This document shows positions 34,062 to 63,298 of a stretch of DNA of 64,000 nucleotides, piece after piece (the first letter of the stretch is position 1; every line of letters begins with the position of its first letter). The DNA is taken from positions 20,024,001 to 20,088,000 of the forward strand of contig NC_089277.1 in NCBI RefSeq assembly GCF_963678975.1, written 5' to 3'. A program made the translations under genes and the position numbers. Source of the stretch: Dysidea avara (taxonomy: Eukaryota > Porifera > Demospongiae > Dictyoceratida > Dysideidae). The notes under the pieces are model-generated. The model worked only from the letters and a program-made list of their open reading frames with translations. It ran no database searches and had not been told where the DNA came from.

Positions 34062-35483
34062 TCACTTAAGAAATGTTGTATTATAATACAATTGGTGCAA
34101 GCATACCCAAACAGATAATGGTAAAATCTCACCTCTGGTACTGTTTCCTGAACCATCACTGTCATCATCATTGACCATTATAGGATGAAGGGCATTCCGG
34201 CGATACTCCAGCAAAACTGGATTATTGATGACTGGTTTGTGGATCAGCCTGGTACATCCAGTCGTTATATCGACTCCAGCCTTTCTACCAGCACTTTTGA
34301 ATGCCTTTCTCAATTGCTTCTTTGTCATTTGCACATCTTTGTACATAAACTTTTCTGACATATTCTTAGTGCCAGCAGAAATATCTGTGGATTTACTGCA
34401 TTCTTTGTTTAAAACAGAAGACACAATATTATCAATTTTACTATGAACAGTATTGTCAAGGTTACTGAGAGACAAAGATCTTATCCTGCTTTCCTCAGAA
34501 AACTTGGGACTTGATAGACCAAATGACCTATTTAAAGTTTCACCGATTTTCTCTGACAGCACATGAGACACAGGTCGCTTGGAAGGGAAGTACTCCTTAA
34601 CATTCAGTGTAGAACATCGAAAAGATATATCTGCTTGTTGATTTAGACGCACATTAGTGAAAAACGTGTTGAACCAAAATGTGAACAACTTTTCTTTTTG
34701 ACCAATGATTGACTGGTGGAAAAACTCCACCTTAACATCTCCGCATAATGGTAACTCCTGTGGTAGCATCAGCTCAGCAAAAGCATCAGATTTTTTGATG
34801 TGGTTGTACACTTTTGATGTATACATCTTAACCTTTTGCAATGTGACAGTGAAATAAGGGGTAAAACTCAAAACATTTGGAATGCCAATCAATTTAATGG
34901 ATTGAAGCAAGACAGTTTTAGGATGGTACTGGAGGTTATTATTGAGCAGATAGCCATAATATCGAACATAGCGTCGTTGACTTGGAACTGAAACACCTTC
35001 TTTGTTTTGTGCTCGTGCTTCACCAAAAAACTGCAAGACTTCTTTGGCACCATCAAATACTCCATTGTGCAGTAGATATGAACAGACCATTGTTCCTGTT
35101 CTGCCCAGTCCATCCTTACAGTGCACAACTGCTACATTGTCATCATCAGCGTTCAACCATTCATCCATGTCTTGGCAAAATACCTGGATGAGTTCAATAG
35201 ATGGAGGATTGTGGGCTTCAAATGGATAACTGGCTACTCTATACTGAAACCTGCTACTATCATAGCTCTCTACACAAAGGTTGTATATTTTGAAATGCCC
35301 TGGGTATTTATCTTCAAGGAATCTACTAATTTCATTACTATGTCCCTTGGATACGCTCTCCCTTCTTCTGCTTGGAAAGCTCATGGCAATAATCCGTGGT
35401 TTAATGTATGACAAATCCAGATCATATCCACTTTCAACATATCTTCGACCCTTTTCACTTGTCCTATTGAATAATCCAGCCAT
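34062..35483 (-). CDS. PTEN-like phosphatase with altered active site
   Basis: 473 codons from ATG (35483) to TGA. Residues 10-30 match the PTEN N-terminal PIP2-binding and start region (GRRYVESGYDLDLSYI). Residues 30-185 are the phosphatase domain with the P-loop HCKDGLGRTG at 121-130, and ~190-310 the C2 domain (GDVKVEFFH, FWFNTFF). Catalytic Cys122 and Arg128 are present. However, the loop that supplies the general acid in PTEN reads YPFEAHNPP, with Ala (GCC) at residue 90 in place of PTEN Asp92. P-loop positions equal to PTEN Ala126 and Lys128 are Asp and Leu. In PTEN this enzyme removes the 3-phosphate of PIP3; here activity is probably lost or altered (inference). The whole conserved part is one exon. 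A donor-like GAG/GTGAGA at 34133/34132 could end the exon before the last ~23 codons. The C-terminal 160 residues are unlike PTEN. Confidence 0.9.
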   Translation of the reverse strand: MAGLFNRTSEKGRRYVESGYDLDLSYIKPRIIAMSFPSRRRESVSKGHSNEISRFLEDKYPGHFKIYNLCVESYDSSRFQYRVASYPFEAHNPPSIELIQVFCQDMDEWLNADDDNVAVVHCKDGLGRTGTMVCSYLLHNGVFDGAKEVLQFFGEARAQNKEGVSVPSQRRYVRYYGYLLNNNLQYHPKTVLLQSIKLIGIPNVLSFTPYFTVTLQKVKMYTSKVYNHIKKSDAFAELMLPQELPLCGDVKVEFFHQSIIGQKEKLFTFWFNTFFTNVRLNQQADISFRCSTLNVKEYFPSKRPVSHVLSEKIGETLNRSFGLSSPKFSEESRIRSLSLSNLDNTVHSKIDNIVSSVLNKECSKSTDISAGTKNMSEKFMYKDVQMTKKQLRKAFKSAGRKAGVDITTGCTRLIHKPVINNPVLLEYRRNALHPIMVNDDDSDGSGNSTRGEILPLSVWVCLHQLYYNTTFLK

Positions 35484-53083: not shown

Positions 53084-53085
53084 TA

Positions 53086-53110
53086 CCGTACAGCCGGAAA
53101 TTTTCGAAAG
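53086..53110. repeat. Left terminal inverted repeat of the pogo-type element
   Basis: Pairs with 57008-57032 with a single C/T difference at position 6. TTTCGAAAA subterminal repeats continue to about 53208 and may bind the transposase (inference). Confidence 0.9.
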
Positions 53111-53208
53111 CAAAAATTTTCGAAAAAGTGTTCCTGATTTATAATTCGAAACTTTTAATTTCGAAAATTTGCTCCTGACTTTTAATTCAAAACTTTTTAT
53201 TTTCGAAA

Positions 53209-54995
53209 ATGTCGACTGATACTTCGACGTCCCATTCAGATCGTTGTATAAACTCTGTGGTTCGTGGTCATCACATATATAAGGATATATGGACACCTGT
53301 GATAGGAGAGGAGTTGACATGCCGAAGAGAAGTTGGAAACATTCATGACTTGCACGCGGTAGCCACCATCCGTGGCAGCGATGTCGTTGGTCACGTACCA
53401 CGTACAATATCGCTGCCTTGTAATGTGTTCATAAGGAAAGGGGGGACAATACGCTGCATCATCACAGGTCACAGGCAGTACTCTCTTGATTTAGATAGAG
53501 GAGGCCTTGACGTTCCATGCAAGCTGAAGTTTGAGGGCAGCAAAAATTCAATAGACCAGCTGTTGGAGAAACTTCGTAATGCACCTGTAGACAAAGCGCC
53601 TGGAAGTGTACCTATGTCGACTAGTAACCAGCTACAACACAGTAAGTTTAATTAGCTATCAAGTGGTAGCTAGCATTTTGGTATTACATGATAGCGCTTA
53701 TGCACCTATCAATGTCACTACCCCAGGTTGGGCAGCAGGTGGGGATTTGCAGAGGATTCATCACCCAAACTCATCTGCAGGCATTTGCAAGCCATATTGT
53801 CAGTATTTCCTGTTAATAGGGGATTTGTAACTCAAAGCTGTTCCCAGGGTTGGGGAATTTGTCACCTATAGCGTTTGCCAAATCCCTGCCTTTGCCTTGA
53901 CAATGATAGGTGCATTATAACTTCTAGAGGTGGTGTGTAATTAATTGAAAGCACTATATTCAGTGGGATGCATGAATTAGAGCATTACAGGCTTGTTATA
54001 CTCCGCGGCTGCTAAAGAATGCATGCGTTTAATTGCAAATTGCATGCATGCATAGAGTCTCACGTTGACTGCCGTTTCCCAGGAAAGTGTGAAAGTAAAT
54101 GTGTTCATATTGTTATAATTAAAGACATGTTAATCAACACCAGCATCCTAATGGAGTGCTCACACCTAAGAAGTTGGGATCGATGTCAGCACTTCAAGCA
54201 TTGCTTTAAGACAAAAGGTTGCACATGCAGTAGTCATGTTATAGTGCTATAATCATCAGTAGCAGTACTATTATAATAGATTCACATTATATGTTTGTGT
54301 TTCTATGGTTGTTTTTTCTCTGGGCAGACCATCATTTAGCAACTATACAGTTAGATCAGAAGGATGATAAGCAGTCAGCAACGCCATTGAGAAAAGTTCT
54401 ACTGCCACCATCTCTTCAGAATCCTCGTTCCACTGTCAATGCAGTAGAAAATCCAGTGTGGCTGCACTTGTACAAGTACACACTAATTCATGCAGATTTA
54501 AGTACTTTGCTTACATCAGGGTCACCACTAAATGATAAACACGTTAATCTGGCACAAACCATTCTGAAGAAGCAATTCCCTAAAGTATCTGGCTTGCAAT
54601 CTACACTTTTACAATTCAAAGCGCTAGACAAAAAGTATTCGAGTGGTATTCAAATTGTACATTGCCCAAATGACCACTGGATTACCATTTTCAAGGAGAA
54701 TTCTTCAGCCAATGTAATCTATGTGTATGATTCCGTTTTTGATTCTCCTAATACAGCAGTGTATACAGTTGCATGTAACTTGTTTAGTGTTGAAGATGAT
54801 CTGTCTGTTGTGATGGTACCAATGCAAAAACAGGCAGCTGGCTCTAATAATTGTGGTCTTTTTTCCATTGCTGTGGCTACCGCTTTAGCTTTTGATAGTA
54901 CCCCTTCTAAATTACAATTTGTAGAAAGTGAAATGCGTAGCCATTTAAAAACTTGCTTTGAGAAGGGAGCGATGAGTATGTACCCCATACATTAG
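53209..54995 (+). CDS. HIRAN-Ulp1/SENP-like protease, two exons
   Basis: Exon 1 (53209-53641, 144 codons plus one base) holds a HIRAN-like domain: residues ~18-75 include VVRGHHIYKDIW, CRREVGNIHDLHAVA and GSDVVGHVPRTIS. The donor is ACA/GTAAGT. Exon 2 starts at 54328 after TTGTTTTTTCTCTGGGCAG; phases match (1), giving about 366 aa. Exon 2 encodes a C48-type cysteine-protease fold with the triad in order: NDHW (His), VYDS (Asp), then QKQAAGSNNCGLFSIA (oxyanion Gln and catalytic Cys). HIRAN domains bind DNA ends (known for HLTF); Ulp1/SENP enzymes cleave SUMO or related modifiers. The gene lies inside the pogo-type element, tail to tail with its transposase, so it is element cargo. A role in removing SUMO at transposition sites is inference. 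The intron carries a MITE (53701-53914). Confidence 0.8.
53701..53914. mobile_element. MITE in the intron of the HIRAN-Ulp1 gene
   Basis: Left TGCACCTATCAATGTCA and right (reverse) TGCACCTATCATTGTCAAGG are inverted. TTA flanks at 53698-53700 and 53915-53917. The interior has GGTGGGGATTTGCAGAGG and GGTTGGGGAATTTGTCA words like 49362-49821. 214 bp. Confidence 0.7.
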
Positions 54996-55470
54996 TGTTA
55001 CACACAGTACTGTGTAAAGTTTAGTGCTGTACACCTGCAAAATTTTTGTCACCGGTTAATTGCCTACCAATAATTGGCAATAACCGGTTAATTGGTTTGT
55101 TTGTATATTGGCAGACATAATGCGAGTCAACAAGCCTGCTGTAAGGTTTAGGGTGGTACCAAAGTGACCATCAACATCTTGTCTAGCAGTAACAGTTATT
55201 ACAATCACATTCTTTGAGGTTATGTTATGATGCTAACACTTAACAGCAGGGGTAATTTATGGTTTACCAAGTGGGTGGGCAATAACCGGTTTAAAGGTTT
55301 CTTCACCGGTTATTGGCTGACCTAGACAACACCGGTTAATAACCGGTTAATTGGACACCGGTGTACAGCACTAGTAAAGTTGATTTTAAAACGTTCTTTT
55401 TGTATTTCAAATATTTAATACAATAATATATACTAACAAGGTAATGATAAGGTAAAGTAAAAGGAACGTG
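54996..55470. other. Region between the convergent genes; CCGGTTA words
   Basis: ACCGGTTAATTGG and AACCGGTTA words recur with inverted partners at 55048-55360 (start TGCTGTACACCTGCAAAA, end CACCGGTGTACAGCAC), suggesting another small palindromic MITE about 350 bp long inside the transposon. No coding frame. Confidence 0.5.
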
Positions 55471-56939
55471 TTAAAGTAGTCCAGCCTTACGGAAGCCATT
55501 AGTGGCTATCTGGGGGTTCATCTTTAAGTAATCAAATGTATTCTTGAGCCATGTAACACCCAAAGGCTTAACAACGCTTAAAGAAAGGTTTACATCAGGA
55601 GTGGAGCATCCATGTTGCAACTGAATTTTGACCTGTTCAGCATACCAACCTTGAAATTCATTACGGAGGAACTCCTTTACAGCCTTGTTAACGCTGATGT
55701 CCAGGGGTTGAAGCCTGTCCGTGCAGTTGGCTGGAACTAGCAAAACATCTATGTTGTTTTCTTCCAGCGTTTTCAGCACAACCTCAGTGCATTGGCCTTT
55801 AAATCGATCAAATATGACTAAACTGCGGTGATCACTTGATAAACCAAGCTCGGACTTCTTCTTTGTCACATAAGGTAACAAAACATTGTGTATATATTGC
55901 AAGGTTGTTACTTGATTAGACCAATGATTCTCAGTAAACGTTGCATGCCAATCAGTTGGAAACTTTGGTTTGGGGAGGCACCTTGGAGTTTTCCCAGCAT
56001 AAACTATTTGGGGTGGCAAATAGTGACCAGACATAGTCACACAAAGAACAGCAGTAATTTGGCGTTTGTCGTCTGCTCCCACTATTTCAACCCGTTTGCT
56101 ACCCACTTCAGCCATTGTCCAATTACTAACTGGCACATAATGAATGCCTGTTTGGTCCCAATTCAACACCAAGCTGTCAGGGATTTCTTCCATTTCAATG
56201 AGAGTTTTTGCATCATACAAAAACTGAGCTTTACCTGCCTCAAAATCTATCAAACTCATCTTGGGCTTTTTAGTAGTTGCACTTCTCTTTACGAAATGTA
56301 TCCTGGACAGCAATGACTTGGCCCAAGCTTTTGTAATAGATATTGGACCTCCATTAATTGACAAAAGATTGCTATCGCGATACTGGACCATTCCAGAACC
56401 TGCCGCCATCACAATGGCTGTATTGACTACAGCACCACTCGAGCGCAAGTGCTTAATGTACATAATCACATAATCATCAAGTTCCTTTCCCAGTAGCAGT
56501 GGGCGGCCTCTTTTTTGTTAGGAAGCTCATTAATGACCACTTCTTGTTTACTCTCCCCTTGATTCTCGTGTTGATGCTCTCGCACAAGTATCTTCAGCTC
56601 CCTCAGATATCGTGCTTTCCAGGTAGCGACGCTACTGACCGGTATTTTGTCTCTTGCCGGATGCAGGGATGCATAATGGCGAATTGTGTCAGTTATTCCG
56701 TGGTCTATAGCTCTTTTGGCGATCTCAGCCCTTTCCTTTCTGCTGTAGTGTTGATACCTTCCTCGCTTGGCATCCGGTTCTTCTTTCTCAATCAATACTT
56801 CCCTTATAGCAGTGTTAGCTGCTTTAATAGCACTGCTGGGAATCGATTTAGACAGTACCCCCGACGGGTTTGGCAAGTCTACAACAGAAGTCGGGTCGCT
56901 TCTACTTCGAATAACAAATCCATACTTTAAAAGCGCCAT
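55471..56939 (-). CDS. pogo-type DDD transposase with one frame break
   Basis: ATG at 56939. The N-terminal part has a helix-turn-helix-like segment (RKERAEIAKRAIDHGITDTI, then SVATWKARYLREL). At 56511-56516 an A6 run in the sense strand breaks the frame: the upstream frame stops after 21 further codons, while one base more (or a -1 slip on AAAAAAG) continues as RGRPLLLGKELDDYV, typical of the family, into the downstream frame starting near 56510. The C-terminal ~330 codons hold the DDE_1 catalytic core with all three aspartates: LNWDQTG, VIFDRFKGQ, LQPLDISVNKAVK. It ends at 55471 (GFRKAGLL). In this superfamily the enzyme cuts at the terminal repeats and inserts at TA. Either a recent one-base deletion or programmed -1 frameshifting explains the break. 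Confidence 0.85.
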
Positions 56940-57007
56940 TTCCGAATATATTCGAATAATCAATTTTCGAAAATGCTCCGGATTTTCGAAATTTTCGAAA
57001 TTAAAGT

Positions 57008-57032
57008 CTTTCGAAAATTTCCGGCTATACGG
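57008..57032. repeat. Right terminal inverted repeat of the pogo-type element
   Basis: Reverse complement of 53086-53110 with one mismatch. Ends CTATACGG followed by TA. Inside it TTTCGAAAATTTCGAAA words precede the transposase start and may overlap its promoter. Confidence 0.9.
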
Positions 57033-57034
57033 TA

Positions 57035-58166: not shown

Positions 58167-58858
58167 GATAAAACAGTACATAATAAACAAAAACAAATTA
58201 TCTTACATAATAACTAGTTATTAGTTAACTAGTTATTAACTAGTTATTAATAGCTATAAGTTACACTGTAGTTTTCAATATCACAATATAGTTGTTACCA
58301 TGGTAGCTACCTATCGAGTTAGCTAGAAATTCTGCAAGATGATGATTCTACGCACTTAGAAAGAATCGAAGGATAGGGTCCGCAATCCGAAAAATCAGCT
58401 TCTACAAATCAATCCCCCTACCATTGTGGGATGTTCATTGTAGTATCCCATTGCTTGATCCACCATGAAACCGGAGGGACGATTGTTGTCTTCACAGAAA
58501 TATCGTTTTCAGTATCTCGCAAGATGCAAAATTTATTTTTAAAATTTCGTTCTCCACACAAAGGACCGAATGAAACTTGCTACTTAGCCAAATCGTATCC
58601 AGAGTTGTTGTAGTTGAAAAGTACGCACAGAAATAAGTAAATAATCTGCTGGGTGCCCGGCACAGGTAGGGATGAGTCTATTTTGCTTTTTTTCTCACCT
58701 ATTTTTCTTTCCAGCAATTCTTTTTTTACCTACCTATTTTGCTCAATATTTTGCTTGTCAACAATCTATTTTGCTCCATAGTTGGTGTACAATGTAATAA
58801 TAATAATTACATGTAATAATCAATAAGCACTGTTTACATACACTATGGTGTTTAGATA

Positions 58859-60895
58859 TTAGTGATTGTATCTTAGCATGATTGATGCCTCCATATAATC
58901 CTTTAGTGAATTTCCTTGTAGGTCACCAAATCCTGAATTCAATAGTGAGAACACCCTTTCTGCAGCAGCCGAGGAGGGCTGTATGGTCAAGACCTTCTTT
59001 ACAGCATTTGACCATAAAGGCAAATCAGTTGCATTGAGCTTCCACCATTCCAGAGCAGCAAGTTCATCACTAATACCATCCGCCTTAGCTACATAAGAAG
59101 GAAGTTCAGCCTTCAAATTTTCAAGCTCGTCATCCTTAAAGAAGGGAACAACCTGCAATGCATTTACATGAGAAACATCTGGCTTAAGCATTACTATCTT
59201 GTGCGGATTGAAAACTCTCACAGCCTTAAAAACTAAAATTTGCTCCTTTAAGGAAGAATCTAGCAGTTCTTGAAAGTAATCTAGAGCTGGTTGCATACAG
59301 CTTCGAGCATAGCTGCGATGCCTCTGCTGTGCAGTTGATTGAGTAGTGATACTGCGAATAACAGCTTCAGTGTTTGGAGTATGAGCTGCCCTGACTGCTG
59401 CAACAACAGTCTGTACTATTTCATAAGCTGTGAAACTCAGTGGCCCATCTCCTTCAAGGTTATATGTAGCCTTAACAAACACCTCCCCCCAATCAATAAC
59501 AGCAGCAAGCTCAAGCTTTAAGTGTTCAAGCTTTTCACGGTCAGTTAAAATAGCTAGTAACTTTGGACGAGATGCAGGGCCTAAGTCTGTATTTTCACTT
59601 AGGAATGGTTCGATATCACCAAACTGGAGCATTATTTGCTTAAAAATTTCCCATTTGCTCCACCACCTGGTAGCACTATACGATGCCATTGCCTTTCCTG
59701 TTTGTTGTTTCCATAGAAATTTGGCTTTAATGCTATGTGAAAAAAGTGCTAGCCAATTACCAATAAACTCAGTCAGGGTTGGTACTTTGAAGTGCTCTCC
59801 AACACGATCAAAAGCATGGCTGAAGCATCCAATATCTATTACATTAGGGTAAACAATCTTCAATGTCCTCATTGCTACACTGTTAACAGATGCTCTATCT
59901 CGCATAGCAGCAATAAGATGGCTGGAAGAAATGCTGTAGAACACTGAAAGCACTTGTACCAATTCGTGTGCAATTTCTTCCCCAGTGAGAGATTTTGAAA
60001 GCAGTTGGATGGCTAGAAGCTGCTGTTGAATTTCAAAAGAATCATTTACAAAGCGCACTAAGACTGCTAATGCCTCTCCACTATGAGAGGTACCATCAAA
60101 AATGACACTCAAGAACTGACCCTGGAGTGATTGCTTAATACGTGCCTTTTCTTCTTCTAAAATAAAAGGAATAAGGTCAAACATAAATCTGCGATCTGTA
60201 AGGCGATAGCCTGTCTCCTCAAAAAGACTACGAAACTGGTCAACCTTACTTAGTGGTACACCCGCTTGAAGAAATGTTTTGACCACTTTGACTCGGAAAA
60301 CCTGCTGTTGTTCCGGAAGAGTCTCACCTCGCCCATGAGCTTCTGCATTATACCTTTGCAGAGATTGTGCAATGTCTGAGTCTTTAACATTCCTTTGTTG
60401 CAGCTTTTTCTTTCCATTAGCATGTTTAGTAGACTTTAAGTGATACTCAATACTGCTCTTTTTGAGGGGTAACTCTTCCCGGCATCCTTGGCAAAAAAGC
60501 TTTCCAGTAGCTACAGTAAAGGGTTCCTTGGAATATTCGGTTACTCTTTGCTGGGGCTTGATCGTTTTTGGGTTGCTCTGCGAATTCGAATGTAATGCTC
60601 TCTTCCTGCCAGCTGGTGGATTTTTGGCAATTTTTCTCTTACGAGAGAAGTCAGATGCACTTGGTGCCTTTAGCACACTAAGCAAGGACACTCCACTAGA
60701 CGTTGGCGTCGTTGAGTTGCTGGCACTTCCGGTAGAACGAGTCCTCGAAGTTGTACTAGTCGAAGTTGTTGTAACATCTGACTCGCGAGACGATTCACGG
60801 TCATCATCATTACTAACAATGCTAAGACTGTCATCTACTTCACTAACATCGCTTTCAGCACTTGAACTGTAGTCAATGCGTTCTATCACATCCAT
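58859..60895 (-). CDS. hAT-family transposase
   Basis: 678 codons from the first in-frame ATG (60895) to TAA at 58861-58859, with no internal stop. Residues 1-75 are Ser/Thr/Asp-rich and disordered-looking. At about 140-165 a BED-like zinc finger is seen (FCQGCREELPLKKSSIEYHL, then KSTKH). The middle carries the RNase-H-like catalytic region (SVIFDGTSHSGEALAVLVRF; RDRASVN; SATRWWSKWEIFKQ). The C-terminal hAT dimerisation region ends WSNAVKKVLTIQPSSAAAER followed by VFSLLNSGF. In this family the enzyme excises and reinserts the element with 8-bp duplications, which fits the flanks here. Confidence 0.92.
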   Translation of the reverse strand: MDVIERIDYSSSAESDVSEVDDSLSIVSNDDDRESSRESDVTTTSTSTTSRTRSTGSASNSTTPTSSGVSLLSVLKAPSASDFSRKRKIAKNPPAGRKRALHSNSQSNPKTIKPQQRVTEYSKEPFTVATGKLFCQGCREELPLKKSSIEYHLKSTKHANGKKKLQQRNVKDSDIAQSLQRYNAEAHGRGETLPEQQQVFRVKVVKTFLQAGVPLSKVDQFRSLFEETGYRLTDRRFMFDLIPFILEEEKARIKQSLQGQFLSVIFDGTSHSGEALAVLVRFVNDSFEIQQQLLAIQLLSKSLTGEEIAHELVQVLSVFYSISSSHLIAAMRDRASVNSVAMRTLKIVYPNVIDIGCFSHAFDRVGEHFKVPTLTEFIGNWLALFSHSIKAKFLWKQQTGKAMASYSATRWWSKWEIFKQIMLQFGDIEPFLSENTDLGPASRPKLLAILTDREKLEHLKLELAAVIDWGEVFVKATYNLEGDGPLSFTAYEIVQTVVAAVRAAHTPNTEAVIRSITTQSTAQQRHRSYARSCMQPALDYFQELLDSSLKEQILVFKAVRVFNPHKIVMLKPDVSHVNALQVVPFFKDDELENLKAELPSYVAKADGISDELAALEWWKLNATDLPLWSNAVKKVLTIQPSSAAAERVFSLLNSGFGDLQGNSLKDYMEASIMLRYNH

Positions 60896-62109: not shown

Positions 62110-62589
62110 ATTTTTGACGTTCTTCACCCAGATGGTGAGAAGTGTCAGATCTTTTCCAGACTAACAGCATAGACAGACTATGCATCCAACCCTATCACAT
62201 CACTATGAGGAAGAGTTGGCTTTTCTTGTCTTGGCTGGTAGGGCAGTTTGAATTCGAAAATTTGTGTTTCGTTTTCTGCTTTTTGAGAGAAAGCAACCCT
62301 GTTCCGGGAACCCAGTGAACCATTTGCTTATTACTGTGCGTACTTTTTAACTACATTAACTCTAGATAATACCTAGCTAAGTAGCAAGTTCTATCCTGTT
62401 CTTTGTGTGGAGCACGAAATTTTAAAAATAATTTTTGCATCTCACGAAATACCAAAATCGATATTTCTGTGAAGACAACAATCGTGCCTCCGGTTTCATG
62501 GTGGATCTAGCAATGGGATACTACAATGAACAACCCACAATGGTAGGGGGATTGATTTGTAAAAGTTGATTTTTTGGATTGCGGACCCT

Positions 62590-63298
62590 ACAAAGGATCA
62601 TTATTCATTATGTATCATTTTTGTTGTAGTTAACTACTTTTCTACATTTTAATACAAGCATTTTATCTACGTGTACACCCAGCAATCTTCATGTGGCAGT
62701 TTTCAAGATATTAGCTAACTATAGAATAGATCAGGTATGATTAGATGTAGATTAAATGTATTATTATTATTATTATTACTAGGACCGCGTCACATACAAC
62801 CAAGTACATACACCAACGTGACAGCCCCCGGTGAGGCTATTAGGTGGTGAATGCATTATCCCCAAATCAACTCAATATGTCACAGTAGTGACAGATATAA
62901 CACAATAGTGGCATGGTAACTAAAGGCCACCAGTAGCTAAGTGCCAGTACATCATTGGTGTGGTATAAATGGCACAGTGATGTGTACAAAGTATATGTAT
63001 ACAAAACATACAGGAGAGAACTATACATTATTGCAGTATTGTATGCAGCAATACATTATAGGCAACATCACCAGATAAAAATTATTAGCCAATATACAGC
63101 ACAGTATATCCAACATCAACTAGAGCTACATAGGGTTCATCAGTGGTGTAGCAATGGCACAGTGATGGGTGACACACTATAATTATGCATACACAACTTG
63201 CAGGAGAAAGCTACACAATACTGTAGGAGTATGCAAGCCAGATGAACCAGATAAAGGAAGACAGCCAGCCAAGCCAGCCAGAGCCTAGAGGTAGTAGC
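62590..63298. other. Non-coding; (ATT)n microsatellite and short repeats
   Basis: ATT repeats at 62760-62780. Around 62885-63190 two imperfect copies of a segment with GTGGTGTAG(C/T)AATGGCACAG/GGTATAAATGGCACAGTGAT and TATACAAAACATACAGGAGAGA/CATACACAACTTGCAGGAGAAA. A splice-like CATGTGGCAG acceptor at 62698 and GATCAG/GTATGA donor near 62734 bound 36 nt in phase with the 57974 exon. Confidence 0.35.

Follow-up and report, generated by a model that had tools for sequence, protein, structure and literature searches.

A two-gene element in a reverse transcriptase relic

The window, a stretch of 64,000 nucleotides from the Dysidea avara genome (NC_089277.1, positions 20,024,001 to 20,088,000), contains a pogo-type transposon with two convergent genes: one for a transposase and one for a predicted protein in which a HIRAN domain precedes a Ulp1/SENP-type cysteine protease (Table 1). 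The inverted termini and TA duplication reported for this element in the original prediction hold up, with the 25-bp repeats matching at 24 of 25 positions and, when the TA and one more base are included, at 27 of 28. A 24-base terminus pattern with up to three mismatches allowed occurs at two sites only in the window, which are the two element ends (shuffled sequences would be expected to give none), and its opening CCGTA is common to other subfamilies.

The element is inserted in a reverse transcriptase relic. When the flanks are joined through a single TA, the surrounding frame is open across the junction; to the left of the insertion lies a piece of reverse transcriptase (RVT_1, 1.7e-10), to its right a piece with no Pfam match, and the relic has stops elsewhere. 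The two genes are separated by a short non-autonomous element, itself no part of the two-gene system, which the C14 and C3 copies lack and which has at least 30 further copies.

Table 1. Features of the element in the window and other copies of its family
Feature	Position	Strand	Remarks
Whole pogo-type transposon	53086..57032		coordinates exact on re-check
TA target-site duplication, left	53084..53085	.	
TA target-site duplication, right	57033..57034	.	
Left terminal inverted repeat	53086..53110	+	25 bp
Right terminal inverted repeat	57008..57032	-	25 bp
HIRAN-Ulp1 gene, exon 1	53209..53641	+	open frame; GT donor at 53642
HIRAN domain	53251..53541	+	aa 15-111; alignment A1
Predicted intron	53642..54327	+	GT-AG, 686 bp; joins two frames in phase; from DNA alone
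HIRAN-Ulp1 gene, exon 2	54328..54995	+	stop codon included
Ulp1/SENP-type (C48) protease domain	54456..54986	+	alignment A2
Protease residues (first codon base)	H 54675, D 54729, Q 54831, C 54852	+	
Nested short non-autonomous element	55022..55373	.	352 bp; ends TAGTGCTGTACACC; 8-bp target duplication GTAAAGTT
Pogo-type transposase gene	55471..56939	-	start codon at 56939; two frames meeting near 56512
Transposase catalytic D residues	56155-56157, 55807-55809, 55699-55701	-	
Window-family copy	C14:13440812		both ends and both genes
Window-family copy	C3:44582447		both ends and both genes
Window-family copy	C1:31732955		both genes in part
Sister (83%)	C14:14612711		both genes, broken
Window-family copy	C15:2442979		HIRAN exon and much of transposase lost
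Window-family copy	C3:47780436		HIRAN piece only

The transposase gene

The window transposase matches the Pfam model DDE_1 at 1.2e-14, the best value among ten transposases that all match it at E <= 1. Its catalytic aspartates are spaced by 115 and then 35 residues (DD35D); the second interval lies within the 29 to 59 residues expected between the last two aspartates of pogo elements, for which the TA target-site duplication and short terminal inverted repeats are likewise characteristic. All three aspartates are invariant in the ten aligned transposases, and in the profile alignment they are kept in 35/35, 46/46 and 46/46 of the loci having a letter there. The DDD transposase of the original prediction is borne out by this match and spacing, with the correction that the frame of the window copy changes once. 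The N-terminal DNA-binding motif HTH_Tnp_Tc5 was found in two of ten transposases (best 0.0086), the window member having been scanned without its N-terminal part; that part alone (P0003) has no Pfam match, and a search of PDB with the transposase profile gave nothing meaningful.

The HIRAN-Ulp1 gene

The second gene is predicted to encode 366 aa in two exons, the first of which has three further copies that are 97% identical. The window protein alone matches HIRAN at E = 0.064 and has neither a C48 match in Pfam nor a match in PDB; the HIRAN and Ulp1 calls depend on profile matches of relatives in the same genome, with Pfam HIRAN in 9/9 relatives (best 5e-8) and Pfam C48 in 8/9 (best 4.1e-7), each at E <= 1. 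The earlier assignment of a HIRAN-like and a Ulp1/SENP-type domain to one gene thus stands by way of the relatives, and the profile check proposed for its exons succeeds with them and fails on the window protein alone. In one relative inspected in full, neither domain reaches its Pfam threshold, the scores being 21.4 of 24.7 and 16.2 of 20.7 bits; there are also pogo-linked loci above the C48 cut-off, such as C13:7479639 (31.2 bits) and C9:1374979 (30.8). The family profile finds SENP1 at 5.3e-5 in an alignment that puts H, D, Q and C in register, and the family HIRAN profile reaches HLTF in PDB only at E = 0.57. There are weak matches, too, to other models of papain-like or CE-clan-like type (YopJ-type in 4/9 and ElaD/SseL-type in 2/9 relatives, best 1.7e-4), so the substrate of the protease could be ubiquitin and not SUMO.

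The four protease residues are invariant in 10/10 aligned sequences (alignment A2). Across the loci having a letter at the column in the profile alignment, H is kept in 49/49, D in 48/49 and C in 49/50; the Q column, where there is a length difference, holds Q in 39 of 48 and K in the remaining 9. For HIRAN, under a correspondence taken from the profile alignment with HLTF, the equivalents of N91, D94, H110 and K113 (as R) are kept in 47/49, 46/49, 49/49 and 47/49 loci; those of Y72 and Y93 are not conserved. Since 25 distinct open frames, some truncated, contain HIRAN and Ulp1 together, the two form one protein, in which the linker is variable. AlphaFold single-sequence models of the two domains reached pLDDT of 36.9 and 32.0, leaving both folds unconfirmed by model, and Foldseek with the poor Ulp1 model returned nothing at E <= 0.001. 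No PHROGs match was better than 0.06, and there was none in NCBIfam.

Spread of the gene pair within the genome

The genome searched was the window's own (550.8 Mb), from which all copy counts come; counts from match lists are lower bounds ("at least"), and the loci examined are the best-scoring ones and not a random sample. Copies without the second gene, or a second gene residing mainly outside such termini, had been named beforehand as signs of chance capture. Neither pattern was found: HIRAN and Ulp1 are both present, convergent to the transposase, at 30/30 top transposase loci, and the transposase is present at 28/30 top HIRAN loci in this one genome. Transposases at the 30 loci range down to about 52-57% identity with that of the window, so that the structural reading, in which a pogo-class element has a HIRAN-Ulp1 gene of its own, extends to a diverse lineage. 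Full copies keeping both genes were also sought, and two of the window family are of this kind (Table 1). Near-identical copies within the lineage are apparently recent.

Wider sampling gives the same arrangement. Among the matches listed, HIRAN and/or Ulp1 lies beside 99 of 116 transposase matches (the lists show no such match for the other 17), and a transposase match lies within 2.5 kb of 65/150 HIRAN matches; all 67 HIRAN matches with a transposase within 8 kb are convergent with it. Random placement gave a mean of 0.19 and a maximum of 2, in a control for which the lengths of C5 and C11 were guessed and 20 Mb was assumed for contigs outside its list. Again among the matches listed, 69/150 Ulp1 matches have a HIRAN match, upstream and on the same strand in 69/69, and 78/150 have a transposase match, convergent in 78/78. 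The same Ulp1 type is also found in this genome as a fusion with P-element-like proteins that have a PHD finger.

After merging into 51 loci, 42 show the transposase, convergent in 42/42. TA-bounded inverted ends were found in 26/51, in a search designed to require a TA at each end; in most loci without a terminus pair the stretch examined probably did not extend to both ends, and some pairs were anchored on an inner TA, making element lengths approximate. Comparison of copies in one subfamily shows flanks that are unrelated as far as the TA. Searches of viral contigs (P0002, P0001, P0004 and the terminus), genome contigs (the spliced protein) and phages (P0002) found no relatives.

Shared history and selection

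Gene trees were compared for 20 elements, these being the 45 with enough sites minus any at least 93% identical to one kept. The transposase and HIRAN-Ulp1 trees share 12/17 splits, with one well-supported split in conflict; 16/20 elements have the same nearest neighbour in both genes, and distances in the two are correlated (Mantel r 0.689, with 0/10000 permutations as high).

Values of dN/dS were calculated on open segments, excluding segments shorter than 180 bases and pairs with fewer than 50 shared codons, with individual values listed for no more than 40 pairs in each domain. The clearest comparisons fall between 0.07 and 0.28: C2:19817190 against four relatives gives 0.10-0.11 for HIRAN, 0.11-0.15 for Ulp1 and 0.07-0.09 for the transposase, and the window family against its sister C14:14612842 gives 0.23-0.26 for Ulp1 (155 codons) and 0.10-0.28 for the transposase. 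Medians over all pairs with dS of 0.08-1.5 are 0.35 for HIRAN (17 pairs), 0.56 for Ulp1 (53) and 0.18 for the transposase (21). At low dS the values for Ulp1 range from 0.42 to 0.92, several of these pairs including copies that are visibly degraded, and four pairs of near-identical copies give 0.4-0.9 from 5-12 differences. Both genes are under purifying selection in the clearest comparisons. In several subfamilies the two are enclosed by termini of the same type, and they have much of their history in common; co-location, shared splits and dN/dS together identify an old, co-inherited two-gene lineage and not a single capture.

Relation to known systems

No pogo-type element with HIRAN-Ulp1 was found in the literature, Repbase and other eukaryotes lying outside the comparison. 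KDZ/Zisupton elements carry a Ulp1-type protease, as here, with an unrelated transposition enzyme. In the passages of a survey drawn on here (PMC7386202), elements have one or two ORFs that encode transposases, whereas the second gene in the window encodes HIRAN-Ulp1; the terms "HIRAN domain", "Ulp1" and "SENP" appear nowhere in the survey's full text. Ginger1, as excerpted from PMC2836005, is likewise a cut-and-paste element with a Ulp1 protease, for which a role in transposition or repair has been suggested, but its Gypsy-integrase-like transposase is fused to C-terminal Ulp1 (or OTU) and PHD domains, whereas the pogo transposase here is accompanied by a second, convergent gene in which HIRAN precedes the protease. 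Membership in Ginger1 was rejected on these grounds, the transposase being DDE_1 and the protease a separate gene. Ulp1 is also found on Mutator (PMC2836005), Cryptons (PMC3212892) and the Utopia and NeSL retrotransposons (PMC4640811), all with unrelated transposition enzymes and, in the passages cited, with no mention of HIRAN.

Similar in layout, tail to tail, are the RAG-like transposons with their convergent RAG1L and RAG2L (excerpt of PMC7204232), which are also two-gene cut-and-paste elements with a transposase and an accessory gene; they differ in their transposase, their 5-bp duplication and the Kelch and PHD domains of RAG2L, where the window element has a HIRAN-protease partner. For HIRAN itself, excerpts on HLTF report binding of the 3'-OH at ssDNA ends, requiring N90/N91 (PMC11237066), and stacking of Y72 and Y93 on DNA (PMC4666394). 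The HIRAN of this lineage shares the N91, D94, H110 and K113 (as R) positions and, on the same excerpts, differs from HLTF in having neither motor nor RING, in lacking Y72/Y93 and in being fused to a C48 protease. C48-class proteases are carried by several unrelated mobile elements in the sources excerpted above; with near-identical copies, a partner protein in one frame and a DNA-end ligand known from HLTF, why they are carried is now directly testable here.

Proposed function of the second gene and alternatives

The two genes together resemble a machine in two parts more than a passenger picked up by chance. We think it probable that the window holds one copy of a two-gene pogo-superfamily lineage in which the second gene supplies an accessory factor, most likely a SUMO-type protease that would be directed to DNA ends or to complexes of the transposase. 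SUMO is central to transposon silencing and DNA repair. The DD35D transposase would cut and paste the element at TA, and HIRAN could carry the protease to the free 3' ends expected from pogo-type excision, or to the complex of transposase and DNA. There the protease may strip SUMO or a SUMO-like modifier from the transposase, host silencing proteins or repair proteins, allowing excised ends to be joined and new copies to escape silencing. The catalytic residues and four HLTF-like HIRAN positions are compatible with such a DNA-end and deSUMOylation role, but the loss of the DNA-stacking tyrosines of HLTF speaks against it. A bolder version, offered tentatively, is a two-component pogo transposition in which an obligate, co-evolving, DNA-end-directed SUMO protease would serve the transposase at excised ends and new insertions, in a partnership like that of RAG1/RAG2.

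A serious competitor, which we hold to be possible though not the likelier account, is host evasion: the protease would act mainly away from transposition and deSUMOylate host silencing proteins, while HIRAN would direct it to chromatin or to damaged DNA in general. The recurrence of Ulp1 proteases on Ginger1, Mutator, Cryptons, Utopia and NeSL, as given in the excerpts cited above, and the P-element-like fusions in this genome speak for it; however, the steady tie to one transposase lineage and the agreement of the gene trees fit a closer partnership equally well.

Rather unlikely is a protease that would stop or time the reaction by cleaving or de-modifying the element's own transposase. Co-inheritance with the transposase would suit it, as would the true endopeptidases known among C48-like enzymes, but no polyprotein is apparent and the longer transposase frames (467-488 aa) are separate from HIRAN-Ulp1. 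Many elements encode repressors, and HIRAN alone could bind ends; a catalytically dead DNA-binding repressor limiting copy number is nevertheless very improbable given how consistently H, D and C are retained across loci. Least credible of all is chance capture, in which one pogo element took up a host HIRAN-Ulp1 gene as a passenger: transposons do capture host genes and the window copy alone could be read so, but this reading, rejected along with that of a single relic, is contradicted within this genome by both domains at every top locus of so diverse a transposase, by the transposase at nearly all top HIRAN loci, by shared tree splits and by the low dN/dS of the clearest comparisons.

Distribution of the two genes

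The HIRAN-Ulp1 gene carried by pogo-type elements of Dysidea avara is not one single capture. A search of the genome protein by protein (550.8 Mb, 108 contigs) returned at least 116 matches to the transposase and at least 150 each to HIRAN and Ulp1. Among the matches listed, a transposase lies within 8 kb of 67 of the 150 HIRAN matches, convergent in all 67, and within 2.5 kb of 65; loci placed at random yield on average 0.19 HIRAN-transposase pairings at the shorter distance and never more than 2. Within the same lists, HIRAN accompanies 69/150 Ulp1 matches, always upstream on the same strand, transposase accompanies 78/150 (convergent in 78/78), and 50/150 have neither, long PHD-finger fusions among them. 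At least 99 of the 116 transposase matches have HIRAN or Ulp1 (96 by matching lists and 3 more by eye); the other 17 have no such partner among the matches listed.

Reading of individual loci answers, for this genome, the original question whether other copies keep both genes: HIRAN and Ulp1 are both present at all 30 loci fetched for the transposase (among 51 merged loci read), and the arrangement is convergent in 42/42 merged loci with the transposase in view. In the loci retrieved with HIRAN as query the gene mostly stands beside a transposase, seen in 22 of 30 at first and in 28 after seven were lengthened by 2.5 kb, six of which gained it. The remaining two are C14:3869776 (contig:position), which was extended, and C3:47779138, which is degraded and was left unextended.

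Shared history, selection and subfamilies

The element is a co-inherited two-gene unit in which each gene shows signs of selection. Across 20 elements, distances in one gene correlate with those in the other (Mantel r 0.689; 0/10000 permutations as high, the largest 0.336), nearest neighbours agree for 16/20, and FastTree trees of the two genes have 12/17 splits in common, with one conflict among the well-supported splits. The clearest dN/dS comparisons, at moderate synonymous distance, involve C2:19817190 and the window family. Between C2:19817190 and each of C1:57837078, C1:7665002, C9:1372215 and C13:7477404, the ratio is 0.10-0.11 in HIRAN, 0.11-0.15 in Ulp1 and 0.07-0.09 in the transposase; the window family and its sister C14:14612842 give 0.23-0.26 in Ulp1 (155 codons) and 0.10-0.28 in the transposase. 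The same sister against two relic pieces on C15 gives 0.20 and 0.37. Weighing against these low values, the median for every pair with dS 0.08-1.5 taken together is 0.35 for HIRAN (n=17), 0.18 for the transposase (n=21) and 0.56 for Ulp1 (n=53), the last from a list with many pairs near saturation and low-dS pairs at 0.42-0.92, several involving degraded copies; near-identical copies are uninformative. Given low values in the clearest pairs and the higher Ulp1 median, Ulp1 is clearly under selection in some lineages, and overall this selection is looser than that on the transposase.

Open frames with both domain matches comprise 25 distinct sequences of 243-471 residues, some truncated and some in several identical copies. 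Inverted ends at TA occur in 26/51 merged loci, in several sequence types mostly beginning TACCGTA, and elements measure about 2.95 to 3.95 kb. One subfamily occupies 11 places (left end found at 11, right end at 9) whose flanks are unrelated right up to the TA. The HIRAN-Ulp1 frames at C10:16552537-16555905 and C10:16626220-16629588, about 74 kb apart, are identical; this pair is perhaps a segmental duplication.

The window copy

Features of the window copy and of other loci carrying Ulp1 (L, locus read from the genome; C, contig)
Feature	Position	Strand or placement	Remarks
pogo-type element	53086-57032		TA at 53084-53085 and 57033-57034; 25-bp inverted ends
Transposase gene	56939 to 55471	minus	DDE_1 domain, 1.2e-14; DD35D triad
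HIRAN-Ulp1 gene	53209-53641 + 54328-54995	plus	two exons; 366 residues; predicted in-phase GT-AG intron
Nested unrelated 352-bp non-autonomous element	55022-55373	between the two genes	ends TAGTGCTGTACACC; 8-bp duplication GTAAAGTT
L076	C3:25333800-25339500		1196-aa open frame; transposase-like part, Ulp1, PHD finger; PF12017 P-element HTH match
L077	C1:48123000-48128800		1244-aa open frame; transposase-like part, Ulp1, PHD finger; PF12017 P-element HTH match
L078	C12:4757500-4762500		1224-aa open frame; transposase-like part, Ulp1, PHD finger; without PF12017 match
L079	C82:27500-31500		822-aa frame with Ulp1

Besides the element's two ends, the terminus pattern (up to 3 mismatches) has no further site in the window, where none is expected by chance. 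The left flank encodes a reverse transcriptase piece (Pfam RVT_1, 1.7e-10), and a Pfam scan of the right flank piece gave no match. When the flanks are rejoined via one TA, the reverse-transcriptase frame stays open over the junction, with stops elsewhere in the relic, which marks precise insertion of the element at TA. The transposase has one frame change, in an A run near 56512; the C14 copy is intact across that spot but broken at other places. The nested element, presumably hAT-like judging by its 8-bp duplication, is absent from the C14 and C3 copies and has at least 30 more copies in the genome.

Identity of the HIRAN and Ulp1 domains

The predicted domain pair is recovered from same-genome relatives and not from the window protein alone, for which Pfam gave a weak HIRAN match (0.064) and no C48, and PDB no match. 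At E <= 1, relatives matched HIRAN in 9/9 cases (best 5e-8) and Peptidase_C48 in 8/9 (best 4.1e-7); the one displayed in full is under the Pfam cut-offs for both, and weak additional matches were to YopJ-type (4/9) and ElaD/SseL-type (2/9) models. Run against the genome, the C48 model places several pogo-linked loci above cut-off (e.g., C13:7479639 at 31.2 bits and C9:1374979 at 30.8). The protease part, searched as a profile, matched SENP1 at 5.3e-5, with H, D, Q and C all in register, and a Ulp1-like SUMO protease at 2.6e-4. These four residues are invariant in 10/10 aligned members; across the wider locus set H is kept in 49/49, D in 48/49 and C in 49/50, and the Q column, where the alignment differs in length, holds Q in 39/48 and K in 9/48.

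The HIRAN profile reached HLTF at 0.57 at best. By profile alignment, HLTF N91 is kept in 47/49, D94 in 46/49 and H110 in 49/49, and K113 appears as R in 47/49, the last three residue numbers being counted from N90/N91; D94, H110 and K113 are residues with functional roles in HLTF. The Y72 and Y93 positions are changed in pogo-linked HIRAN in the same alignment. In HLTF, passages of PMC4666394 describe these two tyrosines as stacking onto the bound dinucleotide.

Possible function

A HIRAN domain would direct the SUMO protease either to ends freed by excision or to the end complex. Tc1/mariner-group DDE transposases leave 3'-OH ends with short overhangs. The SUMO system is active in both repair and transposon silencing, so end joining could be helped, the transposase protected, or silencing of new copies lifted. 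The HIRAN of HLTF binds a single-strand end with a 3'-OH, according to passages of PMC11237066. Whichever of these kinds applies, HIRAN-Ulp1 is most likely an accessory factor for the element.

Ulp1 beyond the pogo lineage

Judged from sequence, this Ulp1 subtype seems common to unrelated transposons of the genome, and what would then distinguish the pogo lineage is the HIRAN fusion. In the three PHD-finger fusions scanned with Pfam (L076-L078, 1196-1244 residues), the transposase-like part comes first and Ulp1 stands ahead of the PHD finger; HIRAN was looked for, with no match. Frames at C4:36563211 and C12:5665627 equal such fusions in length. Separately, C1:63779406 and 17 other places on many contigs give 18 near-equal Peptidase_C48 matches (111-116 bits, mostly 165-aa frames), apparently a further repeated Ulp1 family.

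Passages of the literature place Ulp1 on Ginger1 and Mutator elements (PMC2836005), Cryptons (PMC3212892), and Utopia and NeSL retrotransposons (PMC4640811), and additional ORFs on ciliate Tec and TBE elements (PMC7325037). The two-gene convergent design is, in passages of PMC7204232, already known from RAG-like transposons. Full-text counts of "HIRAN domain," "Ulp1" and "SENP" are zero in PMC7325037 and in the pogo superfamily survey PMC7386202. No pogo element with HIRAN or Ulp1 was found in titles, abstract starts and some passages of papers listed by searches of the openly licensed PMC literature; a database entry for such an element, for instance in Repbase Reports, may already exist.

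Other features of the window

At 58862-60892 on the minus strand, an open frame of 677 aa encodes a hAT dimerisation domain (8.5e-10); inverted repeats at 58374-58666 and 62298-62590 (87% complementary) flank it. A PTEN-like phosphatase frame (PTEN_C2, 2.3e-18) occupies 34062-35480, also minus, and arrays of ~31-bp, TTGTAGCTGAACTCTCTACAGGGTGATTTG-like repeats extend from 22 to about 4930.
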